From Sphingobacteriales bacterium (lineage in GTDB: Bacteria > Bacteroidota > Bacteroidia > Chitinophagales > Chitinophagaceae), in NCBI GenBank assembly GCA_900299255.1, contig OMJB01000056.1, forward strand, positions 1 through 64,000: DNA of 64,000 nt. The letters are read 5' to 3'. The first letter of the stretch is position 1. Each line of letters opens with the position of its first letter. Made by a program: the position numbers and the translations under genes. This document shows positions 1-16,600 of this stretch, one piece after another. The notes under the pieces are model-generated. The model was not told the origin of the DNA and searched no databases. It was given only the letters and a program-made list of their open reading frames with translations.

Positions 1-626
1 GCAAATCCGGTAAAGGCAAAAATAAACGCCATCATCTGCAGCTTACTACTGCCCAGCAATGGTGCCATTTCCCTGAAATCGAGTGTACCTGTAGTGCCAT
101 AGAGCATAGATATGCCAAACAGCAGGATACACGATGCAAAAGCAGAAGAAAGGATCATCTTTACTGCAGACTCTGAAGATTTAACTTTATTCAGGTCATA
201 GTTGCACATGGCTGCAAGTGGTATTGTCGATAGTTCCAGCCCGAGATAGAACATGAGGAAGTTGCCGCTTGATATCATAAAGTCCATACCCAGTAAAGTA
301 CACAGCAGCAATATGTAAAATTCAAGCAGATGCTGATGATCTTTCAGCCAGTCAAAAGCCTGAAGTGAAATAATAAAAGTACCCAGGTTAAGTACCGTCT
401 TTTCCACAAACAAAGTACTGGTGTTATGGTACATACCACTGAATAGCTCGCCCGGAGTATTACCAAACAAACCAACTATAAGATTTACGAACAATAAAAC
501 GTTCGCAATATTCAGCAAAGCCGTGTTCGATTTCACTCCATCCCATATTTTCAGAAAGAGCAAAAAGAAGATGATAGCCGTAAGCAGCATCTCAGACTTC
601 ATCAACATCATAAATTCTGTACCCAT
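1..626 (-). CDS. nuoN: NADH-quinone oxidoreductase subunit N (partial)
   Basis: This is the first ~208 residues of the antiporter-like membrane subunit NuoN of complex I, read from an ATG at 626 and cut by the window start. The translation is strongly hydrophobic with several predicted membrane helices. It carries the NuoN-like stretch GNFLMFYLGLELSTIPL, in which a membrane glutamate sits in helix 5 as in all Mrp-type antiporter subunits. It is the last gene of the nuo cluster, 139 bp after nuoM. That gap is filled with CAACCAAT-type low-complexity sequence. Identity rests on helix pattern plus operon position. Confidence 0.9.
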   Translation of the reverse strand, partial: MGTEFMMLMKSEMLLTAIIFFLLFLKIWDGVKSNTALLNIANVLLFVNLIVGLFGNTPGELFSGMYHNTSTLFVEKTVLNLGTFIISLQAFDWLKDHQHLLEFYILLLCTLLGMDFMISSGNFLMFYLGLELSTIPLAAMCNYDLNKVKSSESAVKMILSSAFASCILLFGISMLYGTTGTLDFREMAPLLGSSKLQMMAFIFAFTGF

Positions 627-765: not shown

Positions 766-2274
766 CTAATTCACCCCCACCACTCTTGTAATGTTATCCA
801 TAATCAACTGTGTATCCGGCGAAACCAGATTGTTCAGCCAGAACGGAGCAATACCTATTGCAAGAATGCAAATGAGCAGCGCAACAGATGCCAGTTTCTC
901 ATTCCACGAAGCATCACTGAATTTCAAAAACTCGTCGTTCTTTACCGGCCCCATACCCGACGCCCCTACAGCCCTGAGTATGTATACCGCTGTTACTACA
1001 ATTGATGCACACGCCAGTACAGTAGCCGTTCTGTAAAAAGTATCCGGATGCTGCCACGCACCTACAAAAACGGTCATTTCGGCAACAAAACCACTCAGCC
1101 CCGGCAAACCCAGAGAGCATAAACCGGCTATCACAAAAACCGTGATAATAAACGGAATGGCTTTAAGCAGGCCCCCAAGCTGTGCTACCTGCCTGGTGTG
1201 GGTTCTTTCGTATATCATACCTATAGCGGCGAAGAAAAGCGCTGTCATAAGCCCGTGAGACACCATTTGCAGTACTGCTCCGGTAATAGCCGTCTTTGTA
1301 AGCATCCCAATTCCAAAGATCACAAAACCGCAGTGGCTAACAGAAGAATAGGCGTTGATGTATTTCAGGTCCGTCTGCATCAGTGTGGCAAAAGCACCGT
1401 AAATAATAGCAATCGTAGAAAGCAGAATAATTACCCACGAATACTGGTGTGCAGCTTCCGGCATCAGGTAGGCAGCTACACGCAGGCAGCCATAACCGCC
1501 CAGCTTCATAGATATACCTGCCAGAAACATGGAAGCAGCTGTGGGTGCCGACGAGTGTCCGTCTGGTGCCCATGTATGAAAAGGGAACATTGCTGTAAAT
1601 ACACCAAACCCAACGAACATCAGCGGAAAAATAAACTGTTGTGCGGCAACAGGTATGTGCATCTGTACTATTTTGAGCAGGTCAAAGGTGTGAGCACCAC
1701 TGCCCGTATTGGTATTGAAGTACAGAAACAAAAATCCTATCAGCACCAGTGCAGATCCGCCCATAAGCATCAAAGCCAGCTTCATGGCACTGTATTCCTT
1801 TTTGCCGCTGCCCCATATTCCTATCAGCAAAAACTTGGGTATCACTGCCACTTCGAGGAAAAAGAACATCGTAAAAAGATCAAGCGATATAAAGAAACCA
1901 TATGCGCCCAGGCTCAGCAGCACAATCAGGAAAAAGAACTCCTTTGCCATCTTTTCTACATTCCACGATATAAGTATGCCCGTCATTACAACCACTGCAG
2001 TAAGCATGATCATAGCAACCGAAATGCCGTCTGCACCCACATAATATTCAATATTCAAGCTGCTGAACCACGAATGGCGCGACTCATACAGCATCTGAGC
2101 TTTGTTGCCCGCAGCCCTCTGGCTCATATAGTCCAGCATAATCAGCGATGAGTAACCCAGCTGTGCCACAGACCCGAGCAGTGCCACCATTCTTATCTGA
2201 GCGGCTGTACTGCAGATCAGCACCAGCAATGCTGTTGCAAGCGGAATAAGTAATAATATAGATAAGTTGATCAT
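766..2274 (-). CDS. nuoM: NADH-quinone oxidoreductase subunit M
   Basis: NuoM is one of three antiporter-like proton-pumping subunits of the complex I membrane arm. The 502-residue protein matches the family length (about 500) and has about 14 hydrophobic segments. Visible family features are the conserved glutamate of helix 5 in FFFLEVAVIPKFLLIGIWG, and the lysine- and histidine-bearing stretches FPFHTWAPDGHSSAPTAAS and LKYINAYSSVSHCGFV. It starts with ATG 38 bp after the nuoL stop, which supports co-transcription. Nothing suggests truncation. Confidence 0.97.
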   Translation of the reverse strand: MINLSILLLIPLATALLVLICSTAAQIRMVALLGSVAQLGYSSLIMLDYMSQRAAGNKAQMLYESRHSWFSSLNIEYYVGADGISVAMIMLTAVVVMTGILISWNVEKMAKEFFFLIVLLSLGAYGFFISLDLFTMFFFLEVAVIPKFLLIGIWGSGKKEYSAMKLALMLMGGSALVLIGFLFLYFNTNTGSGAHTFDLLKIVQMHIPVAAQQFIFPLMFVGFGVFTAMFPFHTWAPDGHSSAPTAASMFLAGISMKLGGYGCLRVAAYLMPEAAHQYSWVIILLSTIAIIYGAFATLMQTDLKYINAYSSVSHCGFVIFGIGMLTKTAITGAVLQMVSHGLMTALFFAAIGMIYERTHTRQVAQLGGLLKAIPFIITVFVIAGLCSLGLPGLSGFVAEMTVFVGAWQHPDTFYRTATVLACASIVVTAVYILRAVGASGMGPVKNDEFLKFSDASWNEKLASVALLICILAIGIAPFWLNNLVSPDTQLIMDNITRVVGVN

Positions 2275-2312: not shown

Positions 2313-4280
2313 TTACGTCCACCAGTAAATAAATATCAGTACGAAACCAACAGCACCGGCAAAAAAGTAGGCCGCATACTGCTGCACTTTACCCGACTGC
2401 AATCCCTTTATCAGGGCAGATATATGCGCCGTAACTGAGGCCAGCATATTCATAAACCCATCCACCACATTACGGTCAAACCAGGCTGCCGGCCTGCCCA
2501 CAAACGGAAACAGTATTTTCTTTGTCACAAACAGGTATATCTCGTCTATATAAAACTTATTGTAAGAGCCCCTGTACAGCGCACTCAGGCTATCTGCCAT
2601 CTTTTGCGGCACCGCGCTTTCTTTTTTATAAAATGCAAGGGCAATGAATATACCCAGTGTGGCTAGCAATACTGGTGCTATAGAAAAAGTCATGTGAAAT
2701 TCAGTAGCCAGTGCCTTACCGTCAGAAGTGACCAACCTGTTAAACGGAATAAACCCTACGGCCACCGACAATAAACCGAGTATCACCAGCGGAATCAACA
2801 TAGTGGCCGGGCCCTCTCCATGGTGTGCATCATGTGCGTCAGCTGCGCCATGTGCATCATGCGCACTTTCTTTGTGAGGCAGTGGTTTGTTCCAGAAAAT
2901 ATTAAAATACAAACGGAACATGTAAAATGCAGTAATAGCCGCAGTAAGAATAGCCAGGCCAAATATCACTTTATTGGCATGATAAGCCGATTGAAGTATT
3001 TCTTCCTTACTAAAAAACCCGGCGAATGGTGGGATGCCGGCAATAGCCAGGCACGCTATCAGAAAAGTGAAATGGGTCACCGGCATCAGTTTTCTCAGCC
3101 CGCCCATATCTTTCATTTCGTTGCTGTGCACATAGTGTATTACAGATCCTGCACCCAGGAACAGCAGTGCCTTAAACATGGCATGCGTAAACAGGTGAAA
3201 CATGGATGCCATGTATCCCAATCCGTTTTCTCCGCCATACCGGGCTGTACCCAGCGAAAACATCATGTACCCTATCTGCGACATGGTTGAGTAAGCCAAT
3301 ACCCTTTTAATATCTGTCTGAGTACATGCAATGATGGCTGCAATAAGGGATGATGATACACCCACCCACATTACAATATCAAGAGCAGCAGGGCAACCTG
3401 AGAAAACCGGAAACAACCTTGCCACCAGAAAAACACCCGCAACAACCATGGTCGCAGCATGTATAAGGGCAGATACCGGTGTAGGCCCTTCCATCGCATC
3501 AGGGAGCCATATGTGCAGCGGAAACATAGCCGACTTACCCGCGCCACCTATAAACACCAGCACCAGGCCCCAGGCCAGCGCCGAAGCTCCCATAAATGAA
3601 GCAGCAGTAATGGTGTGCAGTTCGTTGGTTTGCATTGTTAACCGCTGAATCATTGTCTGAAAATCAAGCGTACCTGAGTAATATGACAGTATTAGTATAC
3701 CGATCAGAAATCCAAGGTCCGCAAAACGAGTAACAATAAATGCCTTCTTAGCAGCCGATACAGCTGAGGGTTTCTCGAAATAGTAACCAATAAGCAGGTA
3801 TGAAGATACACCTACCAACTCCCAGAACATGTAAATCTGGAAGATATTGGAGGACAGCACCAGTCCAAGCATTGAAAAAGTAAACAGGCCTAAGTAAGAA
3901 TAAAAAGTTGCATAACGTTCTTCACCCTTCATGTATCCCAGACTGTAAAAATGCACCATCAGCGATACCAGCGTCACCACTACCAGCATCATTACTGAAA
4001 TAGGGTCAAGCATAATACCCAGGTCAATAGAAACATTAGGTGCAAACTGCAGCCAGTTGATTTTTAGTGGCACCATTTGCTGGTAAGCATCACCCACTTT
4101 ACCCACAACAAAGAAATAATCATAGGCTACGGTGGCCGATAGTACAAACGACCCTAACACAGACAGTGTACCCAGTACACCACAAAAAGACGGAAAATTC
4201 TTACGCCCCACCAGCGAAATCAGCAGGAAACTGATAATGGGCAAAAACGGAATTAATATAATTAATGAAGTGCCGAGCAT
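2313..4280 (-). CDS. nuoL: NADH-quinone oxidoreductase subunit L
   Basis: NuoL is the distal antiporter-like subunit with the long lateral helix of complex I. At 655 residues it has the family length. It contains FPLHIWLPDAMEGPTPVSAL, the helix-5 region MFWELVGVSSYLLIGYY, and DIKRVLAYSTMSQIGYM. Between the last helices of the core and the C-terminal part there is a His/Asp/Ala-rich loop (about residues 473-490), which is not conserved in the family generally. The start ATG lies 3 bp after the nuoK stop, indicating tight translational linkage. Confidence 0.97.
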   Translation of the reverse strand: MLGTSLIILIPFLPIISFLLISLVGRKNFPSFCGVLGTLSVLGSFVLSATVAYDYFFVVGKVGDAYQQMVPLKINWLQFAPNVSIDLGIMLDPISVMMLVVVTLVSLMVHFYSLGYMKGEERYATFYSYLGLFTFSMLGLVLSSNIFQIYMFWELVGVSSYLLIGYYFEKPSAVSAAKKAFIVTRFADLGFLIGILILSYYSGTLDFQTMIQRLTMQTNELHTITAASFMGASALAWGLVLVFIGGAGKSAMFPLHIWLPDAMEGPTPVSALIHAATMVVAGVFLVARLFPVFSGCPAALDIVMWVGVSSSLIAAIIACTQTDIKRVLAYSTMSQIGYMMFSLGTARYGGENGLGYMASMFHLFTHAMFKALLFLGAGSVIHYVHSNEMKDMGGLRKLMPVTHFTFLIACLAIAGIPPFAGFFSKEEILQSAYHANKVIFGLAILTAAITAFYMFRLYFNIFWNKPLPHKESAHDAHGAADAHDAHHGEGPATMLIPLVILGLLSVAVGFIPFNRLVTSDGKALATEFHMTFSIAPVLLATLGIFIALAFYKKESAVPQKMADSLSALYRGSYNKFYIDEIYLFVTKKILFPFVGRPAAWFDRNVVDGFMNMLASVTAHISALIKGLQSGKVQQYAAYFFAGAVGFVLIFIYWWT

Positions 4281-4283
4281 ATT

Positions 4284-4598
4284 TTAATATTTCATTGTAT
4301 CTGTTTGCTCCACATCTATTGACTTGTAGTTGCGGTAGAGATTGATAATAATAGCAATTGCCACAGCTGCTTCTGCCGCCGCTATGGTGATGATAAACAG
4401 AGTAAAAAACAAGCCGTCCAGTTTATCAGGAAACAAAAACTTATTAAAAGCAACAAGGTTAATGTTTACACTGTTCAGAATCAGCTCTACCGACATCAGC
4501 ATTGTGATTAGATTCCTACGTGTGAGGAAGCCGAAAACGCCTATGAAAAAAAGCGCACAACTGATGAACAAAAAATGAAAAAGCCCTATATCGTTCAT
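4284..4598 (-). CDS. nuoK: NADH-quinone oxidoreductase subunit K
   Basis: Small three-helix membrane subunit (104 residues, the usual length is about 100). The MSVELILNSVNINLVAF stretch carries the conserved membrane glutamate of NuoK, and a second glutamate lies in the helix containing AAAEAAVAIAIIIN. Both are part of the central proton axis in known structures. It sits between nuoJ (49 bp upstream) and nuoL (3 bp downstream), the standard order. Confidence 0.96.
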   Translation of the reverse strand: MNDIGLFHFLFISCALFFIGVFGFLTRRNLITMLMSVELILNSVNINLVAFNKFLFPDKLDGLFFTLFIITIAAAEAAVAIAIIINLYRNYKSIDVEQTDTMKY

Positions 4599-4647: not shown

Positions 4648-5256
4648 TTACTCTGCCACTGCCTCCTGCGTTTCTAAATGCCCAGCCGAAATAACCGGCA
4701 CATCATCCTCATTTCCTTTATTACTATCAGGCAATATCTTGTGCGGTGGCACTTTGATCTTTATTGCAATAACAATACAACCAATCATTGCCGCCAGCAG
4801 CAGCATACTCACCACTTCAAACGGAAGCATATATCCATGCTCAGTAGTACTGAGCATTTGCCCACCAATATTGGCTGCACTTGGTTCAACTGCGGGCTTG
4901 CCGGATGCTGTAAATACCTGCTGACTGATCACATACATAGTAAGCATGCATCCGAAAATAGCCGCCAGCGCCGAAAAAACAGCCTGCCCCAGTGCCGGCC
5001 GCTGCATATCCTCACCAGATCCCTGAGTAAGAAAAATTGAAAAGATGATCAGCACCACTATCCCGCCCACATACACAACCACCTGCACGGCTGCAATAAA
5101 TTCATAGTCAAGATAAAAATACAGCCCTGCAATACCTATAAGAGTAAACAACAGGTATACCGCCGACCGGAAAATCTTTCGAGAGGTTACAGACATAAGC
5201 CCGCCCCCCACTATTGTAGCAGCTAAAATGTAAAATATTATCGTCCTGGCATCCAT
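4648..5256 (-). CDS. nuoJ: NADH-quinone oxidoreductase subunit J
   Basis: NuoJ membrane subunit, 202 residues with five predicted helices. The helix with VVYVGGIVVLIIFSIFLT matches the family's conserved pi-bulge helix TM3. The C-terminal tail after residue about 165 is hydrophilic (KVPPHKILPDSNKGNEDD) and longer than in E. coli (184 residues), as is common in Bacteroidota. It starts at ATG 5256, 45 bp after nuoI. Confidence 0.95.
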   Translation of the reverse strand: MDARTIIFYILAATIVGGGLMSVTSRKIFRSAVYLLFTLIGIAGLYFYLDYEFIAAVQVVVYVGGIVVLIIFSIFLTQGSGEDMQRPALGQAVFSALAAIFGCMLTMYVISQQVFTASGKPAVEPSAANIGGQMLSTTEHGYMLPFEVVSMLLLAAMIGCIVIAIKIKVPPHKILPDSNKGNEDDVPVISAGHLETQEAVAE

Positions 5257-5301: not shown

Positions 5302-5778
5302 TTACTCCACACCCTCCATAATTTTCGATCCCGGCTGGTTCAGTACCTTTTTCAGTTGTCGCTTGTCATAAACACTATGCTCAAACGACTGCCCCATTAC
5401 AATTGCGTCTGACGGACATGCTAACACACACATATTACACATGGTGCAAAGTTCCAGGTGGTACACAAACGTATCTATCGCTTTCTTCTTTTTCCCATCC
5501 GGCTGCAGTTCCTGCTTGGTAATGATCTTGATTGTTCCGTTCGGGCAGGCAATCTCACATGCCTGACAGCCGGTGCACCTGTGTTCGTTGTTTTCATTAT
5601 GAGGCATAGTTACTTCACCCTTAAACCGGTCAAACATGGTCAGTGTTGCCCGGTTATCAGGATATTCCTCAGTCTGTATTTCTTTCGGATGGGTAAAATA
5701 ATAACCGGTCAGCTTCATCCCTTTAAGCAGCGACCTTGCCGACCTGTATATGCTCCCGAAATACTCTTTTAAAAACAT
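5302..5778 (-). CDS. nuoI: NADH-quinone oxidoreductase subunit I (2x[4Fe-4S])
   Basis: The peripheral-arm subunit carrying clusters N6a and N6b, which pass electrons to N2 in NuoB. Two complete CxxCxxCxxxCP motifs are visible: Cys68/71/74/78 and Cys111/114/117/121. The 158 residues fit the family. In a complex lacking NuoEFG this subunit would be the outermost iron-sulfur protein, and so the expected docking site for a ferredoxin donor. That role is inference. It is preceded by nuoH (86 bp gap). Confidence 0.96.
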   Translation of the reverse strand: MFLKEYFGSIYRSARSLLKGMKLTGYYFTHPKEIQTEEYPDNRATLTMFDRFKGEVTMPHNENNEHRCTGCQACEIACPNGTIKIITKQELQPDGKKKKAIDTFVYHLELCTMCNMCVLACPSDAIVMGQSFEHSVYDKRQLKKVLNQPGSKIMEGVE

Positions 5779-5864: not shown

Positions 5865-6959
5865 TTAAAAATGCCACCCCATAATTGCCATCACTGTCAC
5901 CAGTATCACATTCACCATACTTACCGGGAGCAGATACTTCCACTCCAGAGTCAGCAGCTGATCCACACGCAGGCGCGGGAACGTCCACCTGAACTGCATG
6001 ATGATGAATATGATTGCAAATGTTTTACCCAGAAACCACACTGACGACGGTATGTAATCCATCACAAAGTTGAATGTATGCCAGTGCCCTATATGAAAAG
6101 GCATCCATCCGCCCAGAAACAGAGTAGCCGCTATCGCAGATACAACAAACAGGTTGATGTATTCTGCAAGCAGGAACATGGCAAATTTCATCCCCGAATA
6201 CTCCGTGTGAAAACCCGCTGTAAGCTCCTGCTCTGCTTCGGCCAGGTCAAAAGGCGCACGGTTAATCTCCGCTGTAGACGCAATCAGGAAAATAACAAAA
6301 GATATCAGCACCGGTATATGCCCTTTAAATATCCACCAGCCATTTTCCTGGCTCATAACTATATCCGACATCCGCAGGCTACCCGCCAGAATCACAATAG
6401 AAATAAGCGACAGCCCAACTGAAAGTTCATAACTTACTATCTGAGCGCCACTGCGCATGGCACCCAGCAACGAGTATTTGTTATTACTGCTCCACCCGGC
6501 CATCAGTATACCAATAACAGCTATCGAAGAAATAGAAGAAACATACAGCACACCAATACTTATGTCCCATATCTGAAAGTTCTTAGCAAACGCAATAGGC
6601 GCCATCACCAGCATGGAAGTTACCACCACAATCATTGGTGCCAGGTTAAACAGGAATTTGTCGGAAGCGTTTGGTGTCAGGCCTTCTTTAAAAAGCAACT
6701 TAATGGTATCAGCCACTATCTGCAGTGTCCCTTTCGGGCCCACCCTGTTGGGCCCAAGGCGCACCTGTATAAATGCAGCTACCTTGCGCTCCATATAACC
6801 CAGTATAAAACAAAGCGGCACCAGAAACACCAACAATGCAAGGCCGGCAATCACCATTTCGATCACCTTTACCAGCCCTTCGCTATGTACGGCACCCACC
6901 AGCCATTGATGGATACCCGTTGCGAATGATGAAAAACTTATGTCTAAAATGAGTTTCAA
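5865..6959 (-). CDS. nuoH: NADH-quinone oxidoreductase subunit H
   Basis: NuoH forms the quinone-binding chamber with NuoB and NuoD. The 364-residue protein has eight or more hydrophobic segments and the family signatures GYMERKVAAFIQVRLGPNRVG and EINRAPFDLAEAEQELTAGF. No ATG is available in frame upstream of the first conserved residues. The earliest start is TTG at 6959, with stops shortly upstream, so a TTG start is the best choice. The gene follows nuoD after a 123-bp gap, exactly where nuoE, nuoF and nuoG lie in 14-subunit operons. Confidence 0.95.
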   Translation of the reverse strand: MKLILDISFSSFATGIHQWLVGAVHSEGLVKVIEMVIAGLALLVFLVPLCFILGYMERKVAAFIQVRLGPNRVGPKGTLQIVADTIKLLFKEGLTPNASDKFLFNLAPMIVVVTSMLVMAPIAFAKNFQIWDISIGVLYVSSISSIAVIGILMAGWSSNNKYSLLGAMRSGAQIVSYELSVGLSLISIVILAGSLRMSDIVMSQENGWWIFKGHIPVLISFVIFLIASTAEINRAPFDLAEAEQELTAGFHTEYSGMKFAMFLLAEYINLFVVSAIAATLFLGGWMPFHIGHWHTFNFVMDYIPSSVWFLGKTFAIIFIIMQFRWTFPRLRVDQLLTLEWKYLLPVSMVNVILVTVMAIMGWHF

Positions 6960-7082: not shown

Positions 7083-8204
7083 CTACCTATCCACATCCGG
7101 TATTACCAGGTCAATTGTAGACATGATAGCCACCAGATCGCCTATTTTAGTTCCTGTTGCCATTCTTTCCAATGCCGACAGGTTGGAGAAATTGGGTGAA
7201 CGGTATTTGATCCGGTACGGCGAAGCCGCACCATCACTTACTATATACACACCCAGTTCCCCGCGCGCTGTTTCCACACGCTGATAAAATTCACCCTTCG
7301 GCAGCTTCAGCACCATCTTGGTCTTAGCCTGAAACTCACCCTCAGGAATATTGTCTATTAGCTGCTCAATAATAAATACAGACTGCTTCATCTCTGCCAT
7401 GCGCACCATGTAGCGGGCATAACAATCACCACCCTGCTCCAGTATTTCTTTAAACTGCAACTTTTCATACCCGTCATACGGAAACAGCTTCCTGACATCA
7501 CAACTAACCCCTGACCCTCTGGCGGTGGGCCCGGTGCAGCCAAAAGAAATTGCATCTTCCGCTGAGATATAACCTACCCCCTTGGTTCGCTGTTCAAAAA
7601 TCACATTGCCGGTCAGTATTTCTTCGTATTCGTTAAACTTCGACCTTATTTGCTTAAGTGTATCCTTTACCCTGTTTCTGAAATTAGGGTGAATATCATA
7701 CATCACCCCACCAGGCACACAGTAGTTCTGAGTAAGCCTTGCACCGCACGTTTCCTCCATGATTGCCATTATAGACTCACGTTCCCTGAATGCATAGAAA
7801 AAAGGAGTTACTGCACCCAGGTCAAGGCCGGTGCAGCCCCACCACAGCTGGTGAGATGAAAGCCTTGTCAGCTCGGCCATTAATATCCTGATGGCCTTAG
7901 CACGTTCCGGCACTTCTACCTGTAGCCCCTTCTCCACACATAGAGCGCAGGCCTGATTATTGATATGGGCACTAAGATAGTCCATCCTGCTCGTAGCATA
8001 AATAAAATTTCTGTACGACAGGCTTTCAGACATTTTTTCGATAGAACGGTGGATATACCCCAGATGCGGCTGTATACGCTTAATAGTTTCCCCATCCAGC
8101 CACACTTTAAGATGAAGCACACCATGAGTAGATGGATGCTGCGGCCCAATATTTATGACAAACTCTCCGTCTTCTGTAACAATATCTTCGCCTAACAAAC
8201 TCAT
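7083..8204 (-). CDS. nuoD: NADH-quinone oxidoreductase subunit D
   Basis: The 49-kDa-type subunit of the quinone site, evolved from the [NiFe]-hydrogenase large subunit. The 373 residues include NIGPQHPSTHGVLHLKVWLDG near the N-terminus (the His-containing quinone-site loop), GYIHRSIEKM, and the C-terminal IDLVIPDVDR that ends the family. The start ATG overlaps the nuoC stop (ATGA at 8201-8204), implying translational coupling. NuoC and NuoD are separate here, not fused as in E. coli. Confidence 0.97.
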   Translation of the reverse strand: MSLLGEDIVTEDGEFVINIGPQHPSTHGVLHLKVWLDGETIKRIQPHLGYIHRSIEKMSESLSYRNFIYATSRMDYLSAHINNQACALCVEKGLQVEVPERAKAIRILMAELTRLSSHQLWWGCTGLDLGAVTPFFYAFRERESIMAIMEETCGARLTQNYCVPGGVMYDIHPNFRNRVKDTLKQIRSKFNEYEEILTGNVIFEQRTKGVGYISAEDAISFGCTGPTARGSGVSCDVRKLFPYDGYEKLQFKEILEQGGDCYARYMVRMAEMKQSVFIIEQLIDNIPEGEFQAKTKMVLKLPKGEFYQRVETARGELGVYIVSDGAASPYRIKYRSPNFSNLSALERMATGTKIGDLVAIMSTIDLVIPDVDR

Positions 8205-8656
8205 ATCTCTATCATATTTTCATCCACATAATTTTTTCTCAGCGGAAACCCCTCCCAATCTTCGTCCAGAAATATCCTGCGCAGGTCGGGATGATTAATA
8301 AATTTCACACCGAACAGGTCAAATACTTCGCGCTCATGAAAATTGGCTGTCTCCCAAATATCGCAAACTGTCTCTATCTCAGGGGTATTTACATCTGCAA
8401 TTTTTGCCTTTACAACAACCGTATGATTATTGCTTTTTGACAGCATATGGTATACCATTGTCAGGTGTGTTTTCCAGTCAATGCATGTGAGGCAAAACAG
8501 ATAATCAAAATCAAATTCGCTATTTCTACGCAACGCCTGCATCAGAGGTTTCAGCCCTTTGCTGTCTGTCAGCACATTCAGGAATTCACCGGCCTCATCA
8601 TAAGTAACATCCGGAAAAAGCGCACTTACGGATTGTTTTATTTCTTCTGTGGTCAT
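8201..8656 (-). CDS. nuoC: NADH-quinone oxidoreductase subunit C
   Basis: 30-kDa-type subunit, about 151 residues from the ATG at 8656. A longer reading starting at 8755 exists but would overlap nuoB by 100 bp and adds 33 unconserved residues. The 8656 ATG forms an ATGA overlap with the nuoB stop, so it is preferred. The C-terminal family signature is seen: [24 protein letters not shown] followed by [13 protein letters not shown] (read as two adjacent motifs). It is soluble and part of the Q-module. Confidence 0.95.
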
Positions 8657-9183
8657 TTTCCGTTTTCGTTTGTTTTTCCAAAATAAGTTTCGTGCTTTAT
8701 CTTTTCCTGCAGTGTTATCATCGCATGCAGTAAAGCTTCCGGCCTGGGTGGGCATCCCGGAATATAAACATCCACAGGTATCACATGGTCCACACCTTTT
8801 ACCACCGAGTAGGTATTATAAAAGAACGGCCCGCCTGATATAGTACATGCCCCCATGGCAATCACATACTTTGGGTCGGGCATCTGGTCGTATAGCCTTT
8901 TTAATACCGGTGCCATTTTCATTACAATCGTACCGGCCACTATAATCAGGTCTGCCTGCCTGGGAGTAGCCCGCGCCACTTCAAATCCAAACCTCGACCA
9001 GTCATACTTGGCATCAGCAGCACTCATCATTTCTATGGCACAGCAACTGGTACCAAACACCAGCGGCCACAGCGAGTTTGACCTCGCCCAGTTGATCATA
9101 TCATCCAGTTTCGAAACCACTATCCCGCCATCCGCCGTTTGGTGCAGTTGCGCCGGGAATATCATTTTTTCTGTCTCTGCCAT
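8653..9183 (-). CDS. nuoB: NADH-quinone oxidoreductase subunit B (N2 cluster)
   Basis: The subunit that binds the terminal [4Fe-4S] cluster N2 next to the quinone. All four ligands are visible: the tandem Cys47-Cys48 in [10 protein letters not shown], Cys113 in MGACTISGG and Cys144 in [10 protein letters not shown]. The length of 176 residues is normal. The stop overlaps the nuoC start. A gap of 84 bp separates it from nuoA upstream. Confidence 0.97.
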
Positions 9184-9267: not shown

Positions 9268-9618
9268 TTACATCCATTTCAATGCTCCCTTCTTCCATGC
9301 ATACAATAACCCCATGAATAGAATGAACATAAACACAACTATCTCAAACAGGCCGGCCATACCTATGCCTTTTACCGCCACGGCCCACGGATACATAAAA
9401 ACCATTTCCACATCAAATACCAGGAATATCAGTGCAAAAAGGTAATATCCTACGTTAAACTGTATCCACGATGTGCCGGTTGTTGGAATTCCACACTCAT
9501 ATGGCTCGCCCTTATATTTATTTTTTGATGTTTTTGCTATAGCTTTCGAAACAAGAATACCCCCCCCTGCAAAAGCAATCCCAACAATGATCAGTAGAAT
9601 TAAAGCCGATGAACCCAT
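9268..9618 (-). CDS. nuoA: NADH-quinone oxidoreductase subunit A
   Basis: First gene of the nuo operon. The 116-residue protein has three membrane helices and the family signatures KYKGEPYECGIP (ND3 loop, with the conserved cysteine) and LIFLVFDVEMVFMYPWA. It starts from ATG 9618. The upstream 342 bp is shared with the divergent ferredoxin gene. Confidence 0.96.
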   Translation of the reverse strand: MGSSALILLIIVGIAFAGGGILVSKAIAKTSKNKYKGEPYECGIPTTGTSWIQFNVGYYLFALIFLVFDVEMVFMYPWAVAVKGIGMAGLFEIVVFMFILFMGLLYAWKKGALKWM

Positions 9619-9960
9619 GTAGCTGCTGCTGTTTTATTTTAACATATATTCTGAAAAACCTGCCGGTTCCGCCTTCTAGCGTTAACCCGTATCAAATTCT
9701 TTACTGGCTCCTTCCGCCACATAGCCAAAAAACACTGCGGCCAAAAAATCCATTCAGCCCACCATACAATATAATATCATTAGATTGAAACAAAACTACT
9801 CTTTTCCGCATAAAAAAAAATTGCCCCCGGACAAAGAACATCCGCTATAAACATTAAGTATGTTTAAATGTTAATAACCTCGAATAATCGCCCTTTGTAA
9901 ATTTATAAATAAATTTACTTTTACGCCTGATTGTAATACTTTTAAAAAAAATACTCAACT
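9619..9960. promoter_or_regulatory. divergent intergenic region nuoA / ferredoxin
   Basis: A gene-free 342-bp region between two divergent transcription units. For nuoA, a minus-strand TAGTTTTG (plus coordinates 9791-9798) fits the Bacteroidota -7 consensus TAnnTTTG. It would give a leader of about 165 nt; a clear -33 TTG is not seen. For the ferredoxin gene, TTTG at 9894-9897 and TACTTTTA at 9916-9923 (18-bp spacing) form a reasonable promoter with a leader of about 30 nt. No ORF or RNA gene was recognised. Confidence 0.5.
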
Positions 9961-10308
9961 ATGGCAATTAAGATAACTGAAGATTGTATCAATTGTGGTG
10001 CTTGTGAACCCGAATGCCCTAACGGCGCTATTTTCGCAAACGGAAACGCGTGGAATTTCGCTTATAAAACTTCTCTTAAAGGTAGTTTCACTGCCAAAAG
10101 TGGCCTTGTGAGCGGGGTTGATGATGAGCATGAAGCTGTCTCTTACGACTACTACTATATTGTAACTGATAAATGTACCGAATGTGTAGGCTTTCATGAA
10201 GAACCTCAATGTGCTTCTGTTTGTCCGGTAGATTGTTGCCTGCCTGACGAAGCAAACGTTGAAACACGGGAAGAACTGGAAGCTAAAATGCAGTCATTGC
10301 ATCCATAA
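9961..10308 (+). CDS. 2[4Fe-4S] ferredoxin, Alvin-like
   Basis: Small soluble electron carrier of 115 residues. The first cluster motif is Cys9/12/15/19 plus Pro20. The second is Cys72/75, an eight-residue insertion, then Cys84/88, with Cys92 available. A CxxCx8CxxxC second motif and a C-terminal helix are typical of low-potential Allochromatium-type ferredoxins. The roughly 50-residue linker between motifs is longer than in that prototype, as often seen in Bacteroidota. It is the likely electron acceptor of KorAB encoded just downstream, and a plausible donor to the divergent EFG-less complex I (inference). Confidence 0.92.
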
Positions 10309-10317
10309 ATTTTCCTG

Positions 10318-10340
10318 AACCCCGCAAACGCGGGGTTTTC
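10318..10340 (+). terminator. rho-independent terminator of the ferredoxin gene
   Basis: AACCCCGC (10318-10325), loop AAAC, GCGGGGTT (10330-10337), then a T-rich tail. It lies 10 bp after the ferredoxin stop, so ferredoxin is probably a monocistronic unit separate from korAB. Confidence 0.85.
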
Positions 10341-10378
10341 TATTGCTTTTGTTTTTTTATTTATGCGTTTTACCCGGG

Positions 10379-10406
10379 TTTGACTTGGGTAAATGTTTTA
10401 ACTTTG
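10379..10406 (+). promoter_or_regulatory. promoter of korAB
   Basis: TTTG at 10379-10382 and a perfect -7 element TAACTTTG at 10399-10406 with 16-bp spacing match the Bacteroidota housekeeping promoter. The predicted transcript begins about 20-25 nt before the korA ATG at 10436. Confidence 0.65.
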
Positions 10407-10435
10407 CAAAAATTTTTTTAATCCCTTCTTAAATA

Positions 10436-12313
10436 ATGGACTCAATTCTAGAACAAAAACCACGGCACGAAACCAACCTGGTGGACGCAGAGAGTATAGT
10501 GATCAGGTTTTCCGGCGACTCCGGTGATGGTATGCAGCTTACCGGCAGCCAGTTTACTGACACTGCAGCATTTTTAGGTAACGATATCAGCACTTTCCCT
10601 GAATTCCCTGCCGAGATCAGAGCCCCCATCGGCACTACAGCGGGCGTTTCAGGCTTTCAGGTTCACTTTGGCAGCAAAGAGATATTCACGCCCGGCGACG
10701 AATACGATGTGCTGGTTGCTATGAATGCCGCTGCTTTAAAGGTTGACCTTCCGCGTTTGAAAAAAGGCGGTATCATTATTACCAACATTGCAGGTTTTGA
10801 TAAAAAAAACCTGGGCCTTGCAGGATATCCCGATGGTGCAAATCCGCTGGAAGACGGAACAGTTGACAATTACACAGTTCATAAAATAGATGTAACCAAG
10901 CTCACCAAGGATTGCCTGGCAGGTACAACCCTGGGAATGAAAGAAATAGAGCGGTCAAAAAACATGTTTGTGCTGGGCCTGCTCTTCTGGATGTTTGATG
11001 AACCAATGGATTACACCATCAGCTTCATCAATGAGAAGTTTGCTAAAAAACCTGAGATAGCTGAAGCAAACGTCAAAACGCTAAAGGCTGGCTGGAACTA
11101 CGGCGACCATACTGAGATTTTTACCACTCGTTATAAAGTATCTGCTGCCACACTCCCTAAGGGTGTATACCGCAGTATTTCAGGCAATCATGCTACTGCT
11201 ATCGGGCTTGTTGCCGCTTCTGAGCTTACAGGGCTGCCGCTGTTCCTGGGTTCGTACCCTATTACACCGGCGTCTGATGTGCTGCACGAATTGTCGAAAT
11301 ACAAGACCAGCAATGTAAAAACTTTCCAGGCTGAAGATGAGATTGCTGCTATCTGCGCAGCAATCGGTGCATCTTACGCCGGTGGCCTCGGTGTAACCAC
11401 AACGTCCGGCCCTGGCATGGCTTTAAAAACAGAAGCAATCGGGCTGTCAACTATTCTTGAAATTCCTTTGCTCATAGTAAATATACAGCGCGGAGGCCCA
11501 TCAACAGGCCTGCCTACAAAAACTGAGCAGAGCGACCTGATGCAGGCAATGTATGGCCGTCACGGCGAAGGCCCATTGCCTGTTGTTGCTGCATGCTCTC
11601 CGGCAGATTGTTTCGATACAGTGCTGGAAGGTGCGCGAATTGCTGTAGAGCATATGACGCCAGTTATCGTGCTTACGGATGGCTACATTGCCAACGGCGC
11701 TGAGCCATGGAGATTCCCCGCAGCAGCTGACCTGAAGCCTATTAAGGTGACGTTTGCATCTGAAAATAATAACCCGGGCGGAACTTTCATGCCTTACAAG
11801 CGCGATGAAAAACTGTCTCGCCCATGGGTTAAACCCGGCACTCCCGGTTTGATGCACCGCATTGGCGGCCTCGAAAAACAGAACGAGACCGGCAACGTAT
11901 CTTATGATGCCAAGAACCACGAAGTGATGACAAAACTACGTGCTCAGAAAATAGAAAAAATAGCTGATTACATCCCTGCAATCGCACCAGATAGCGGTAA
12001 ATCTTCTGGCAAACTGGCAGTTCTTGGTTGGGGGTCTACATCAGGTTCTATTAAGACAGCGGTGCGTGAGCTGATTGCTGAAGGCCATGATGTAGCTCAC
12101 ATTCATTTGCGCCACATCAACCCGTTCCCTAAAAACCTGGGCGAGCTGCTGAGTGCTTATGACCAGATACTTATTCCTGAAATGAACTGCGGCCAGTTAC
12201 TGAACCTGATCAGAGCCAAGTATTTGTTGCCTGCCATCGGTTATTCCAAAGTACAGGGGTTGCCGTTTACAACCGCGGAATTGAAAAACAAAATTCTTGA
12301 AATTTTAAAATAA
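10436..12313 (+). CDS. korA: 2-oxoacid:ferredoxin oxidoreductase, fused gamma-alpha subunit
   Basis: Catalyses, with KorB, the CoA-dependent oxidative decarboxylation of a 2-oxoacid (2-oxoglutarate in most homologues of this architecture) with reduction of ferredoxin. The first ~190 residues are the gamma domain (GDSGDGMQLTGSQFT; NAAALKVDLPRLKKGGIII). Residues ~210-625 are the alpha part, with GSYPITPASDVLHELSKY, the TTTSGPGMALKTEAIGL and NIQRGGPSTGLPTKTEQSDL signatures, and the C-terminal domain with GWGSTSGSIKTA. The length of 625 is normal for the fused form. korB follows 8 bp later. Substrate choice between 2-oxoglutarate and other 2-oxoacids cannot be fixed from sequence reading alone. 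Confidence 0.92.
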   Translation: MDSILEQKPRHETNLVDAESIVIRFSGDSGDGMQLTGSQFTDTAAFLGNDISTFPEFPAEIRAPIGTTAGVSGFQVHFGSKEIFTPGDEYDVLVAMNAAALKVDLPRLKKGGIIITNIAGFDKKNLGLAGYPDGANPLEDGTVDNYTVHKIDVTKLTKDCLAGTTLGMKEIERSKNMFVLGLLFWMFDEPMDYTISFINEKFAKKPEIAEANVKTLKAGWNYGDHTEIFTTRYKVSAATLPKGVYRSISGNHATAIGLVAASELTGLPLFLGSYPITPASDVLHELSKYKTSNVKTFQAEDEIAAICAAIGASYAGGLGVTTTSGPGMALKTEAIGLSTILEIPLLIVNIQRGGPSTGLPTKTEQSDLMQAMYGRHGEGPLPVVAACSPADCFDTVLEGARIAVEHMTPVIVLTDGYIANGAEPWRFPAAADLKPIKVTFASENNNPGGTFMPYKRDEKLSRPWVKPGTPGLMHRIGGLEKQNETGNVSYDAKNHEVMTKLRAQKIEKIADYIPAIAPDSGKSSGKLAVLGWGSTSGSIKTAVRELIAEGHDVAHIHLRHINPFPKNLGELLSAYDQILIPEMNCGQLLNLIRAKYLLPAIGYSKVQGLPFTTAELKNKILEILK

Positions 12314-12321
12314 CATTCATA

Positions 12322-13365
12322 ATGTCCACAATAGCAGAACAGGAAGCAGCTCCAAAACTCACGGCCAAAGATTTTGCTTCTAACCAGGAAGTAAAATGGT
12401 GCCCGGGTTGCGGCGATTATTCTATATTAAAACAAGTTCAAACCGTATTCCCCGATTTCGGAGTACCTAAAGAAGATATTGTATTTATATCTGGCATAGG
12501 CTGCGCAGCACGTTTCACTTACTACATGGATACCTATGGTATGCACAGTATACACGGGAGGGCTGCAGCTATAGCTTCAGGGGTTAAAGCCCTGAACCCT
12601 AATCTGAGTGTATGGTTGGTTTCGGGCGATGGTGACGCTTTCTCAATCGGAGGCAACCACTTCATACACCTCATGCGCAAGAACTTCGATGTAAACTACC
12701 TCGTGTTCAATAACCAGATTTATGGCCTTACCAAGGGACAGTATTCTCCCACATCTGAGAAAGGCAAGGTGGCAAAATCAACGCCATTCGGATCGGTTGA
12801 AGAACCATTCAACCCTAGCGAACTCGCTCTGGGTGCCAAGGCTAGCTTTGTAGCCCGCTCTCTCGACCGCGACCCTAAACATATGCAGATGGTGCTGAAA
12901 CGCGCTAATGACCACAAGGGTACATCATTCGTAGAGATCTATCAGAACTGCCCGGTATTCAACGATGGTACTTTCTTCGCCTATTCTGAGAAAGAAACCA
13001 AGCAGGAGCAGTCTCTGCTGCTGGAGCATGGCAAGCCTCTCGTTTTTGGTACCGGCGGCAACAAAGGGATCAAACTCGATGGTACTAACCCTGTGATTGT
13101 TGACCTCACAGATGGCTCACATTCAGTTAACGACCTATGGATACATGATGAACACGATAAGATCAAGGCGCACATCATCGCCAGCTTCTTCGATTCATCC
13201 TACAACGGCATGAGCTTCCCAAGGCCTTTTGGTGTGATCTATTCTGAGTTGCGCCCTACCTACGAAGAGGGTATGCAGAGCCAGATTGATGAACTGATAC
13301 AGCGTAAAGGAAAACCATCATTGGATAAAATTCTTTCAGGCAACAAGACCTGGACAATCCTTTAA
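12322..13365 (+). CDS. korB: 2-oxoacid:ferredoxin oxidoreductase, beta subunit
   Basis: The thiamine-diphosphate-binding subunit of KorAB. WCPGCGDYSI near residue 30 carries cysteines of the cluster-binding type. GDGDAFSIGGNHFIHLMRKN followed by NNQIYGLTKGQYSPTS is the Mg/ThDP-binding motif. Its 347 residues fit the family. The gene is directly downstream of korA in one operon and ends at a strong terminator. It has no separate ferredoxin-like delta subunit, so it depends on an external ferredoxin such as the one encoded upstream. Confidence 0.92.
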   Translation: MSTIAEQEAAPKLTAKDFASNQEVKWCPGCGDYSILKQVQTVFPDFGVPKEDIVFISGIGCAARFTYYMDTYGMHSIHGRAAAIASGVKALNPNLSVWLVSGDGDAFSIGGNHFIHLMRKNFDVNYLVFNNQIYGLTKGQYSPTSEKGKVAKSTPFGSVEEPFNPSELALGAKASFVARSLDRDPKHMQMVLKRANDHKGTSFVEIYQNCPVFNDGTFFAYSEKETKQEQSLLLEHGKPLVFGTGGNKGIKLDGTNPVIVDLTDGSHSVNDLWIHDEHDKIKAHIIASFFDSSYNGMSFPRPFGVIYSELRPTYEEGMQSQIDELIQRKGKPSLDKILSGNKTWTIL

Positions 13366-13385
13366 TTTGAATTTAATAACTGTTG

Positions 13386-13416
13386 AAAGGGGGTGTTGCA
13401 CAACACTCCCTTTTTT
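13386..13416 (+). terminator. rho-independent terminator of korAB
   Basis: An imperfect stem pairs AAAGGGGGTGTT (13386-13397) with AACACTCCCTTT (13402-13413), with one G-T pair, and runs into a six-T tail. It lies 20 bp after the korB stop. Confidence 0.8.
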
Positions 13417-13605: not shown

Positions 13606-16600
13606 ATGAAAAAACTCATCGTAATACTGGCTGTTATTGCTCTTGGTTTTACTAACCTGTTAAATGCTCAGAACATTTCGACAATTGCTGGCAGTGGGTC
13701 AACTGGTTATAGTGGTGACGGCGGCCCTTCTATTACTGCTTCCTTTTATCGCCCCGTGTGCGCTATTAAAGATGGTGCAGGCAATCTGTATGTCTCCGAC
13801 TTTTATAACTATAGGGTACGAAAAATCAGCACGTCATGCGTTATTTCTACAATAGCGGGTAATGGCGCCGCTTCGTCTTCAGGAGATGGCGGTCCGGCCA
13901 CAGCGGCATCTATCAACTGCCCTCACGGCCTGGCGTTTGACGGAGCAGGCAATCTGTATATTGCAGATGCAGTCGGAAATAGAATACGTAAAATTGACGG
14001 AAGTGGCACTATTACCACAATAGCGGGGACAGGAGCCATGGGATATGGTGGTGATGGCGGCCCGGCCACGGCCGCGATATTGCATACTCCAGAAGGCCTT
14101 TCTTTAGATGCAGCAGGCAATGTCTACTTTGCAGACATATGGAACTTCAGAATCCGGAAAATAAGCACCTCAGGCAACATAACAACAGTCGCCGGTGATG
14201 GATCAGGTACTTACAGCGGCGATGGAGGCCCGGCTACTGCTGCGGGCATACACCTTCCGGTAGGTGTCACCGTGGATAATACTGGCAACATTTATATTGC
14301 CGAAGTGGGCAGTTCAGCTATACGCAAAGTAAACACATCCGGTGTCATTTCTACTATTGCTGGTACCGGGGTATCAGGGTTCAGCGGCGACGGCGGAGCC
14401 GCGACAGCAGCGCAAATTAGTGGCCCTGAACAGGTCGCGTTTGATATGTCAGGAAATTTGCTGATTACCGATAGAGGGAACAATTGCATCCGTAAAATTA
14501 ACGGGTCGGGAATCATTTCAACAATCGCAGGTACACCTACTGCATCTGGTTTCAGTGGCGACGGCGGAGCTGCCACGTCGGCAAAATTTAATTCTTTGTC
14601 ATATACATTCCCTGATTCATCCGGTAATCTCTATATAGCAGATGTAAACAATGATCGTATCCGTGTTATTTCAGTTCCCATATCTGCGATCTCCGGTTTA
14701 TCTACCGTTTGTGTAGGTTCTACCATAACCTTTACAGACGCTACATCCGGCGGCATCTGGAGCAGCGCTAACACTTCTATAGCCACAGTGGGCTCATCCT
14801 CCGGCATTGTAAACGGCCTAAGTGCAGGCGTTGATACTATTTACTATACTACAATAGGAGGAACTGCAAGCACAACGATAACAGTGAATCCTCTACCCGC
14901 ACCTATTACCGGATATTTTTCGATTTGTTCGGTTGTCGGTGGTACAACTACTCTGAGCGACGCAACGCCAGGTGGAACATGGAGCAGCAGCAATCCCACT
15001 ATAGCTACCATAGGGTCAGCAACAGGTATTGCAAATGCAGTTGGCAGCGGCCCGGGCACCACAACAACAATAACATATACGCTGCCAACAGGCTGCGTTG
15101 CAACAACTACATTGAACGTCGTTCCCCCACCATCGCCTATCTTTTTTGGCCCTAATAATGTGTGCGCGGGTGCATGTATCACTATGACACCTACCGTGGG
15201 CGGAGGAACATGGAGCAGTACATCCGGCACGGTTGCAAATGTTGGTAGTTCCACTGGCGTTGTTTGCGGCCTAAGCAGTGGCACTACTGTGATATCTTAT
15301 TGTTGCACATGCCCTTGGGGCAAGACAGTAACTGTCAATCCTAATCCGGCACCAATTGCCGGTCCGAATACAGTTTGTACAGGTGCGACAATAGCATTGA
15401 GTGACCTGACACCGGGCGGCACATGGAGCGCCAGCAACGGGCATGCCACTGTAGGCTCTTTGTCCGGTATAGTAACTGGCGTTACAGCCGGTATTGATAC
15501 CATTAGTTATTCTCAAAGTAGCGGCTGTTCTGCGACAAAAATAATCACTGTCAACGCAGCACCTTCCGCCATTTCCGGCACCCCATCATTGTGCAACGGT
15601 AACTGCGTAACCTTTACCAATGCTGTACCCGGAGGAAGCTGGTCCAGCAGCAGCCCTTCAATAGCAACGGTAGGTTCTGGCACGGGCCTTGTATGCGGTG
15701 CGGCACTGGGCAATGCCACCATTTCATATTCCCTGAGTAACGGCTGCTTTTCGCTTTTTCGGGCAACTGTGAATTCAATCCCCGCTTCGTTTACCGTTAC
15801 CGGTGGCGGCAGCTATTGTGCCGGTGGCGGTGGCCTGCATATAGGGCTGTCCGGGTCATCTCTTGGCGTTAATTATCAGCTTATGCTGGGCGCATCAACA
15901 GTCGGTGCTCCACTGCCCGGCACGGGCGGTCCGCTTGATTTTGGCCTCATCAGTGCGGCGGGTACGTATACTGTCACTGCCACAAATGCAACAACTGGAT
16001 GCACAAGGGCTATGGCTGGCTCTGCTACAATCAACATCAACGCACTGCCCACGGCTATTGCCGGCCCTTCCGGCTATTGCATAGGTGGCACAGGTTCGTT
16101 GTCTTCCTCGCCATCAGGCGGTACATGGTCTGTGAGCAGTCCTGCCGCAGCTGTTGGCAGTTCATCAGGTTTGGTTACCGGCCTATCTGTCGGCACCGCC
16201 AGCATCACATATACAAGCGCTGCTGGCTGCGTAGTGAGTACACTGATAACAGTAAATCCTTCAGTGGGCACAACTTCAGGGCCGTCTTCTGTGTGCGCAG
16301 GTGCTACGATTACACTCTCCAATTCCACACCCGGTGGTGTTTGGGCCAGTAGTGCACCTTCTGTTGCCGGCGTTGGGTCGCTTACAGGTGTTATTACCGG
16401 CGTGGCTGTTGGCACTTCCGTCATTACCTATTCGCTCGGAGGCACATGCACTTCCACGTTCACAGTAAATGTTACTTCAGGCCTGTCGCCTATTACCGGG
16501 CCGTCTAACGCATGTATTGGCTCTACCGTATCACTAAGCGATGCTATGCCCGGCGGCGTGTGGGCCAGTTCCAACCCATCTGTTGCCACAGTATCTGGCA

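Follow-up and report, generated by a model that had tools for sequence, protein, structure and literature searches.

A second, NuoEFG-less complex I probably fed by KorAB through ferredoxin in a genome of the Chitinophagaceae

Which donor reduces a complex I whose NADH subunits NuoE, NuoF, and NuoG are not encoded with it? This question is raised by the start of contig C56 (OMJB01000056.1) of a Sphingobacteriales bacterium of the Chitinophagaceae (assembly GCA_900299255.1; 3.47 Mb, 146 contigs, 97.9% complete), of which a stretch of 64,000 nucleotides, here called the window, was analyzed. On its minus strand the window carries nuoA-B-C-D-H-I-J-K-L-M-N in one operon without nuoE, nuoF, and nuoG, these three having no place in it since only 123 bp separate nuoD from nuoH. 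Head-to-head with this operon, across 342 bp, stand the gene of a two-cluster ferredoxin (fdx) and the korA and korB genes of a 2-oxoacid oxidoreductase. The initial annotation had placed fdx and korAB correctly to the base (Table 1), and the divergent layout that it described was verified, as were the identities of the ferredoxin (NF033683) and of the oxidoreductase (TIGR03710), both above cut-offs. It read the arrangement as a pathway from a 2-oxoacid to reduced ferredoxin and then to quinone, bypassing NADH. From the data presented here, we consider it probable that the operon encodes a second complex I, of 11 subunits, fed by KorAB via ferredoxin and not by NADH.

The neighborhood is conserved in part of the relatives. 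Two samples of species representatives were searched, 117 genomes of the family and 237 of the class, with 5 genomes in common and the window's genome in both; assembly gaps hide some linkages. Carriers of the EFG-less type of NuoD were called at an identity of at least 65% in the family and at E<=1e-110 in the class, the family NuoD places being those among the matches listed. Some NuoD match was found in 116 of the 117 family genomes, the EFG-less type in 49, KorA in 101, and the ferredoxin in 116. KorA adjoins the EFG-less nuo genes in 8 of the 49 family carriers and in 13 of the 45 class carriers (12 from their coordinates and G461 from its contig); in G440 of the class sample it lies ~14 kb from the EFG-less operon. 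All three carriers of family f5, which was sampled with the phylum, have genes for pyruvate:ferredoxin oxidoreductase (PFOR) and ferredoxin divergent from korA-korB-nuoABCDHIJKLMN. Across 48 loci with an EFG-less operon, nuoE, nuoF, and nuoG gave zero matches. The divergent arrangement of the window's genome (G000) is shared by its congener G097, by G089, and by G105; a single run fdx-korA-korB-nuoABCDHIJKLMN is found in G109, G009, G104, and G055. Two cultured species, Flavisolibacter longurius and F. nicotianae (L028, L029), show the same run up to nuoM, where their loci stop, with PFOR divergent from it.

Within the family, KorA itself separates into two groups. A window-like group, K1, comprises 11 full-length rows, the ten others being 70 to 87% identical to that of the window, plus a 177-amino-acid piece in G074, and a second group, K2, is 58 to 66% identical. 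K1 genes lie within 5 kb of an EFG-less nuoD in 8 of 11 cases, the three unlinked ones being those of G005 (at a contig edge), G079 (another gene beside fdx), and G046 (79% complete, without an EFG-less nuoD match); no K2 gene lies within 20 kb of an EFG-less nuoD on the same contig, among the matches listed. In a KorA tree of 112 rows, whose support values are local only, the linked Bacteroidota genes occupy three separate positions: 19 of the 28 rows of the K1 clade are linked, as are all 6 rows of a clade made up of families f5, f8, and f99 and a single K2-type gene, that of G419. Hence, the random co-occurrence that the initial annotation had named as one refuting case was not what we observed, the linkage appearing in several families, two gene orders, and three KorA branches. 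A ferredoxin gene is present in 21 of the 26 loci with KorA beside EFG-less nuo. Moreover, G020 keeps the ferredoxin gene head-to-head with nuo, with korA and korB elsewhere, which makes the ferredoxin as much a partner of the complex as of KorAB.

Several side observations concern these same genes. In K1, korA and korB are direct neighbors in all 11 cases; in some genomes, among them G004, G006, G020, G034, G080, and G085, korA and korB of K2 are >100 kb from each other or on separate contigs. G049 (L145:9700-9936) holds the last 79 codons of korB 200 bases ahead of nuoA, apparently a decayed remnant of a lost korAB. A third type of NuoD, in frames of 583 to 608 amino acids and 40 to 43% identical to that of the window, is a candidate NuoCD-like fusion found in eleven family genomes (G076, G040, G055, G081, G009, G014, G006, G113, G109, G071, and G030). 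In Actinomycetota, korAB also lies near nuo genes (L088, L075, L078, L083, L086, L094, L099): in L088, a metagenome-assembled genome of the Actinomycetes, korAB is divergent from nuoA-B-C-H-I-J-K-L-M, with nuoD, nuoE, nuoF, and nuoG not found, and in the six others nuoN starts ~4 to 9 kb from korB, accompanied by nuoL and nuoM except in L083 and L099. The korAB-nuo linkage may thus be cross-phylum.

Gene content argues in the same direction for PFOR. In the family, PFOR is encoded by 29 of the 49 carriers vs 2 of the 68 other genomes (p 3e-12), and 15 of these 29 have it no more than 20 kb from nuoD, with ~0.3 expected from genome length; two ferredoxin copies occur in 13 of 49 carriers vs 0 of 68 others. 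KorA is found in 49 of 49 carriers vs 52 of 68 others in the family (raw p 7.8e-5) and in 43 of 45 vs 109 of 192 in the class (raw p 9.4e-8), the two class exceptions being 65% and 68% complete. The E1 subunit of 2-oxoglutarate dehydrogenase (OGDH), taken as a negative control, was as frequent in both groups (46 of 49 vs 63 of 68, p 1). Phylogenetically independent pairs were drawn on an OGDH E1 tree covering 100 of the 117 family genomes (44 of 49 carriers and 56 of 68 others). After this pairing, PFOR and EFG-less nuo changed jointly in 6.6 pairs and separately in 0.1, with a median p of 0.016 (range 0.004 to 0.22); for two ferredoxins the values were 3.7 and 0 (median p 0.125). In a ferredoxin tree, 17 window-type ferredoxins of the module (EFG-less nuo, fdx-kor, and PFOR genes) form one group (support 91) without other copies; this tree had 5 "other" rows, one of which (L147) copies a module row, and its labels cluster no more than shuffled ones.

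On contig C82, the window's genome holds a 14-subunit nuo operon (A-D, E, F, G, H-N) with NuoE and NuoF above cut-offs and a short NuoG (TIGR01973, 288 bits vs 470) carrying NuoG-type Pfam domains; the NuoF search covered the window's genome. The NuoD of the EFG-less operon is 39% identical to that of C82. An NAD-type OGDH (E1) is encoded as well. Beside a LuxC-type acyl-CoA reductase gene lies another ferredoxin paralogue, with 63% identity to the one in the window; the other refuting case of the initial annotation was the use of another dedicated ferredoxin by KorAB, and KorAB may use either paralogue. With this 14-subunit operon and OGDH present, the EFG-less complex comes in addition to a complete one, and KorAB runs parallel to OGDH. 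The link from 2-oxoacid through ferredoxin to complex I proposed in the initial annotation was thus supported by the conserved neighborhood, the second ferredoxin paralogue in linked genomes, and the PFOR co-occurrence after pairing, but its wider implications fell: nuoEFG was not lost, being kept in a separate 14-subunit operon, so that the genome as a whole does not bypass NADH, and KorAB does not stand alone at its step of the tricarboxylic acid cycle since OGDH E1 is present. As a side observation, two small open reading frames (ORFs) of 134 and 142 amino acids without an NCBIfam match lie between nuoE and nuoF of this operon (L003:6010-6842, contig C82).

Judged from the residues they carry, the parts of the locus look intact. 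NuoB has Cys 47, 48, 113, and 144, and NuoI has eight Cys in two CxxCxxCxxxCP sets (Cys 68-78 and 111-121), which we take to be the ligands of cluster N2 and of clusters N6a and N6b, respectively. KorB has only four Cys, each of which is kept in all 89 rows of an alignment from which rows of <300 amino acids or <=45% identity were omitted, and KorA has the YPITP motif at residue 274. With its gamma-alpha fusion plus beta subunit, one 4Fe-4S site, and no delta ferredoxin domain, the enzyme is of the KorAB type, a two-subunit type described, in the excerpt of the source, as lacking a built-in ferredoxin domain (PMC5020499). The neighboring ferredoxin has Cys 9, 12, 15, 19, 72, 75, 84, and 88 in a CxxCxxCxxxC and a CxxCx8CxxxC motif; it has the features of the Alvin/YfhL type including the C-terminal extension, with ~34 extra amino acids between the clusters. 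Its best solved relatives include 2fgo, 1blu, and 2zvs, ferredoxins of the Alvin type. The closest solved protein to both KorA and KorB is 6n2n, the 2-oxoglutarate oxidoreductase of Magnetococcus (PMC11304471); like this enzyme and the 2-oxoacid:ferredoxin oxidoreductase (OFOR) of Sulfolobus (5b46, 5b48), KorAB by its sequence would have two subunits, a single 4Fe-4S cluster, and an external ferredoxin. KorB has Arg where StOFOR has Lys49b, as do 6n2n and 8ys5, but the K49R mutant of StOFOR1 preferred pyruvate according to the part of the report available (PMC5020499). The substrate may be 2-oxoglutarate.

We propose a model in which electrons would pass as follows: (i) KorAB would oxidize a 2-oxoacid, most likely 2-oxoglutarate, to acyl-CoA and CO2; (ii) its one 4Fe-4S cluster would hand single electrons to the neighboring Alvin-type ferredoxin; (iii) this ferredoxin would dock at the side of NuoI and NuoB exposed by the absence of NuoEFG; and (iv) it would reduce the iron-sulfur chain, resulting in quinone reduction and proton pumping by the three antiporter-like subunits. 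In relatives, PFOR would feed the same ferredoxin. This route would operate alongside the NADH complex I of 14 subunits and OGDH without replacing them, probably during oxygen shortage.

Several observations weigh against this model. KorA presence alone was tried as evidence and rejected, as after pairing it left 1.6 pairs with and 0 against (median p 1); the case thus rests on linkage and on PFOR. No KorA is adjacent in 41 of the 49 family carriers, some of which may be hidden by contig edges, and none of the 6 carriers whose NuoD forms part of a longer fused frame (five f11, one f107) has it adjacent. Five of the 26 linked loci (L110, L111, L119, L121, L122) have no ferredoxin gene in the available stretch, L119 and L111 stopping within ~1 kb of korA. 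In the window's own genome, PFOR was not found, NuoEFG could serve both complexes, and OGDH and the second ferredoxin are also at hand.

The same neighborhood would be expected if the flow were reversed, the complex I spending proton-motive force on the reduction of ferredoxin, with which KorAB and PFOR would carboxylate to 2-oxoglutarate and pyruvate. Reversibility is a known trait of the KorAB and PFOR enzyme families, and OGDH would be available for the oxidative direction. Nevertheless, G020 and G024, both 100% complete, have KorA and KorB and gave no OGDH E1 match, and in these an oxidative KorAB would be more useful; we regard the reverse use as unlikely. It is still less probable that the 11-subunit core borrows a head to become an NADH- or formate:quinone enzyme, with ferredoxin and KorAB as neighbors for other reasons. 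NuoE, NuoF, and the short NuoG of C82 would be candidates, as would a NuoEF-fusion subunit that is encoded on contig C35 beside an NAD-type formate dehydrogenase alpha subunit of 935 amino acids (TIGR01591, 812 bits vs 666; L004:6008-10475). However, the two NuoD types share only 39% identity, and the recurrent neighbors of the EFG-less operons are ferredoxin, KorAB, and PFOR, with nothing of nuoEFG in the 48 loci.

A common regulation of these genes, at least in relatives, is suggested by a palindrome at their promoters. Two forms were counted, TGA-N6-TCA, fixed after viewing eight gaps, and TGAY-N4-RTCA, chosen after viewing all regions; the core of the latter is, we assume, that of Crp/Fnr-family sites. 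The former occurs in 28 of 42 further module heads vs 3.25 in mononucleotide shuffles, and the latter in 22 of these 42. Overall, 28 of 50 heads contain TGAY-N4-RTCA and 22 do not, where dinucleotide shuffles give 0.9; other genes at the same loci have it in 10 of their 87 heads (p 6e-8). It stands mostly ~50 to 120 bases upstream of the start codon of fdx, korA, nuoA, or PFOR, the loci including L006-L012 and L105-L127, and in G488, where the module is separated, it occurs at the nuo head as well as at the fdx-kor head. The site is absent from the gap of the window and from G097, so the claim of a Crp/Fnr-like regulation is limited to the relatives. That KorAB-reduced ferredoxin mainly serves biosynthesis, the neighborhood reflecting shared low-oxygen regulation and not direct electron transfer, would agree with the recurrence of this site at nuo, fdx-kor, and PFOR heads and with the second ferredoxin of the same type, yet it has very little probability in our view, since an EFG-less complex I needs some donor, its recurrent neighbors are all ferredoxin linked, and the ferredoxin of G020 stays with nuo without korAB.

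The preferred reading, a ferredoxin-fed second complex I, may gain a further component from the gene directly after nuoN. A profile of 12 ORFs run against the ORFs of all loci matched 32, two being repeat views (L133:12822-13220, L126:17204-17533, L121:17949-18284, plus 27 further operons). Apart from one piece at a locus edge, the distance of the matches to the end of nuoN in an EFG-less operon is -46 to 155 bases. Among operons with at least 350 bases past nuoN, 25 of 26 have the gene, the exception being G340 (f11); no match was found in the 14-subunit operon L003. Whole copies have 109 to 144 amino acids and two conserved blocks joined by a Pro/Ala-rich link, which is short in G230, G162, G296, G497, and G525. 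The protein rose above no cut-off in searches of Pfam (E<=10, 4 of 20 members), NCBIfam (E<=1, 3 of 20), and PDB (E<=5, 20-member profile). The congener G097 has this gene, and in the window its position falls past the contig end. Its product is a candidate accessory (twelfth) subunit of complex I. A bolder version, in which KorAB and PFOR, a dedicated ferredoxin, and 11 subunits with the post-nuoN protein as a docking head replacing NuoEFG would make up a self-contained ferredoxin respiration of Bacteroidota under a Crp/Fnr-type low-oxygen switch, has a modest probability in our view.

The principle of a 2-oxoacid-fed EFG-less complex I is already known, and the excerpts of the sources cited here give several precedents. 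The Oor of Campylobacter jejuni has four subunits, and the bacterium is not known to have a complex I other than one without NADH subunits. There, Oor feeds this complex through flavodoxin (Weerakoon and Olson 2008, via PMC4257069), so that the window resembles it in having a 2-oxoglutarate:acceptor oxidoreductase, if the predicted substrate holds, upstream of a complex I without NADH subunits, in C. jejuni leading into menaquinone in an oxygen-respiring cell. The window differs in its two-subunit KorAB, Alvin-type ferredoxin, second complex I, and gene linkage; neither flavodoxin nor a four-subunit Oor is encoded at the locus, the genome not having been searched for flavodoxin. Like the window's operon, the NUO of Bacteroides fragilis (nuoA, BC/D, H-N) is an EFG-less complex I of the Bacteroidota, for which a deletion shows that NADH is not used and the donor is called unknown (PMC7002350, PMC11304471). 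Its NuoCD is fused, unlike the separate nuoC and nuoD and the linked fdx-korAB of the window, and the fused-frame carriers of f11 and f107 may correspond to it; moreover, the absence of any NuoEFG from the genome, as told for Bacteroides, does not apply to the window's genome with its C82 operon. In Desulfitobacterium hafniense, a strict anaerobe, the 11-subunit complex I is needed with pyruvate or lactate, and PFOR and ferredoxin are the donors proposed from proteomics (PMC11238625); the excerpt does not tell of a linkage of donor and nuo genes, whereas here KorAB and PFOR are linked. For aerobic haloarchaea, the same chain as here, from KorAB or PorAB through ferredoxin to a Nuo without NuoEFG, has been hypothesized (PMC8305020), there in an archaeal system with a plant-type ferredoxin and, in the excerpt, no claim of linkage. 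Melioribacter roseus has a NuoEFG-less ndh cluster beside a full set, with ferredoxin as the suggested donor (PMC3534657), linked to transhydrogenase genes and, in the excerpt, with no mention of korAB, unlike the fdx-korAB found here. Among titles and abstract openings of the open-licence literature, we found no description of korAB adjoining EFG-less nuo in Bacteroidota; the Bacteroidota form, with its linkage, second complex, PFOR, new gene, and shared site, is new.

The linkage, found within one bacterial class in more than one arrangement, points to the donors of "headless" complex I and suggests an answer to what powers them, one that is directly testable in the cultured Flavisolibacter. 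Even where OGDH and a normal NADH-dependent complex I are present, bacteria may keep a low-potential branch that could save more energy per 2-oxoacid than NADH would.

The features of the locus are collected in Table 1. The window's nuoN is cut by the contig end and is complete in G097; used as a reference, it retrieved the nuoN-position ORFs of relatives at 54 to 84% identity. The true start of nuoC is probably near 8656 and not at 8755, as NuoC of relatives has 151 amino acids.

Table 1. Features of the locus at the start of contig C56 (window positions)
Feature	Coordinates	Strand	Evidence or remark
nuoN, 3' end missing	3..626	-	Open ORF, 208 amino acids; contig begins at base 1
nuoM	766..2274	-	PF00361, 210 bits
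nuoL	2313..4280	-	PF00361, 272 bits, and PF00662
nuoK	4284..4598	-	PF00420
nuoJ	4648..5256	-	NF005168 and related nuoJ models, each below its own cut-off
nuoI	5302..5778	-	TIGR01971, 81 bits, below cut-off of 113
nuoH	5865..6959	-	NF004741, above cut-off
nuoD, EFG-less type	7083..8204	-	Closest solved relative by sequence: Nqo4, complex I entry 2fug (4hea)
nuoC	8201..8755	-	Start as called, 8755
nuoB	8653..9183	-	Four Cys as for cluster N2
nuoA	9268..9618	-	342 bp from fdx
Divergent gap, 342 bp	9619..9960	.	Between nuoA and fdx
fdx, dicluster 4Fe-4S ferredoxin	9961..10308	+	NF033683, 94 bits vs cut-off of 86
Terminator-like hairpin, fdx/korA interval	10317..10338	+	z -3.8 over a 51-base stretch
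TAACTTTG, possible -7 element ahead of korA	10399..10406	+	Also ahead of korA in G097
korA, fused gamma-alpha subunit	10436..12313	+	TIGR03710, 641 bits vs 483
korB, thiamine pyrophosphate and single 4Fe-4S subunit	12322..13365	+	TIGR02177, 248 bits, just below cut-off of 262; PF02775
Terminator-like hairpin 3' of korB	13385..13414	+	Hairpin scan

The promoters that the initial annotation had seen on both sides of the gap were not borne out. Sigma-70-like sites are in no excess between 9200 and 13700 (7 observed vs 8.1 expected), a single one lying inside the gap (minus strand, 9958-9930), and a scan with a -33/-7 consensus, which we take to be the Bacteroidota type, found no such pair in the 342 bp; the gap holds a lone minus-strand -7-like TAnnTTTG at 9791, one of 52 in the window. 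Ahead of korA, TAACTTTG is weak alone because the window has 6 copies vs 3.4 expected. The fdx/korA hairpin is also found at the same place in G097, in gaps of 127 (window) and 122 (G097) bases; in 16 other loci the fdx-korA gap ranges from an overlap to ~200 bases and is <40 in 12.

Beyond korB, the next gene (13606-20877) encodes a secreted repeat protein of 2,423 amino acids, its repeats being of the NHL, Big_2, and Ig-like kinds, and it ends in a Por secretion tail. A further gene belongs to the acetyl-CoA hydrolase/transferase family (20960-22252); succinyl-CoA from KorAB could be a substrate for a CoA transferase, but this gene lies 7.6 kb away. Further on, a protein of 580 amino acids with a SEFIR/TIR domain is encoded at 26266-28008.

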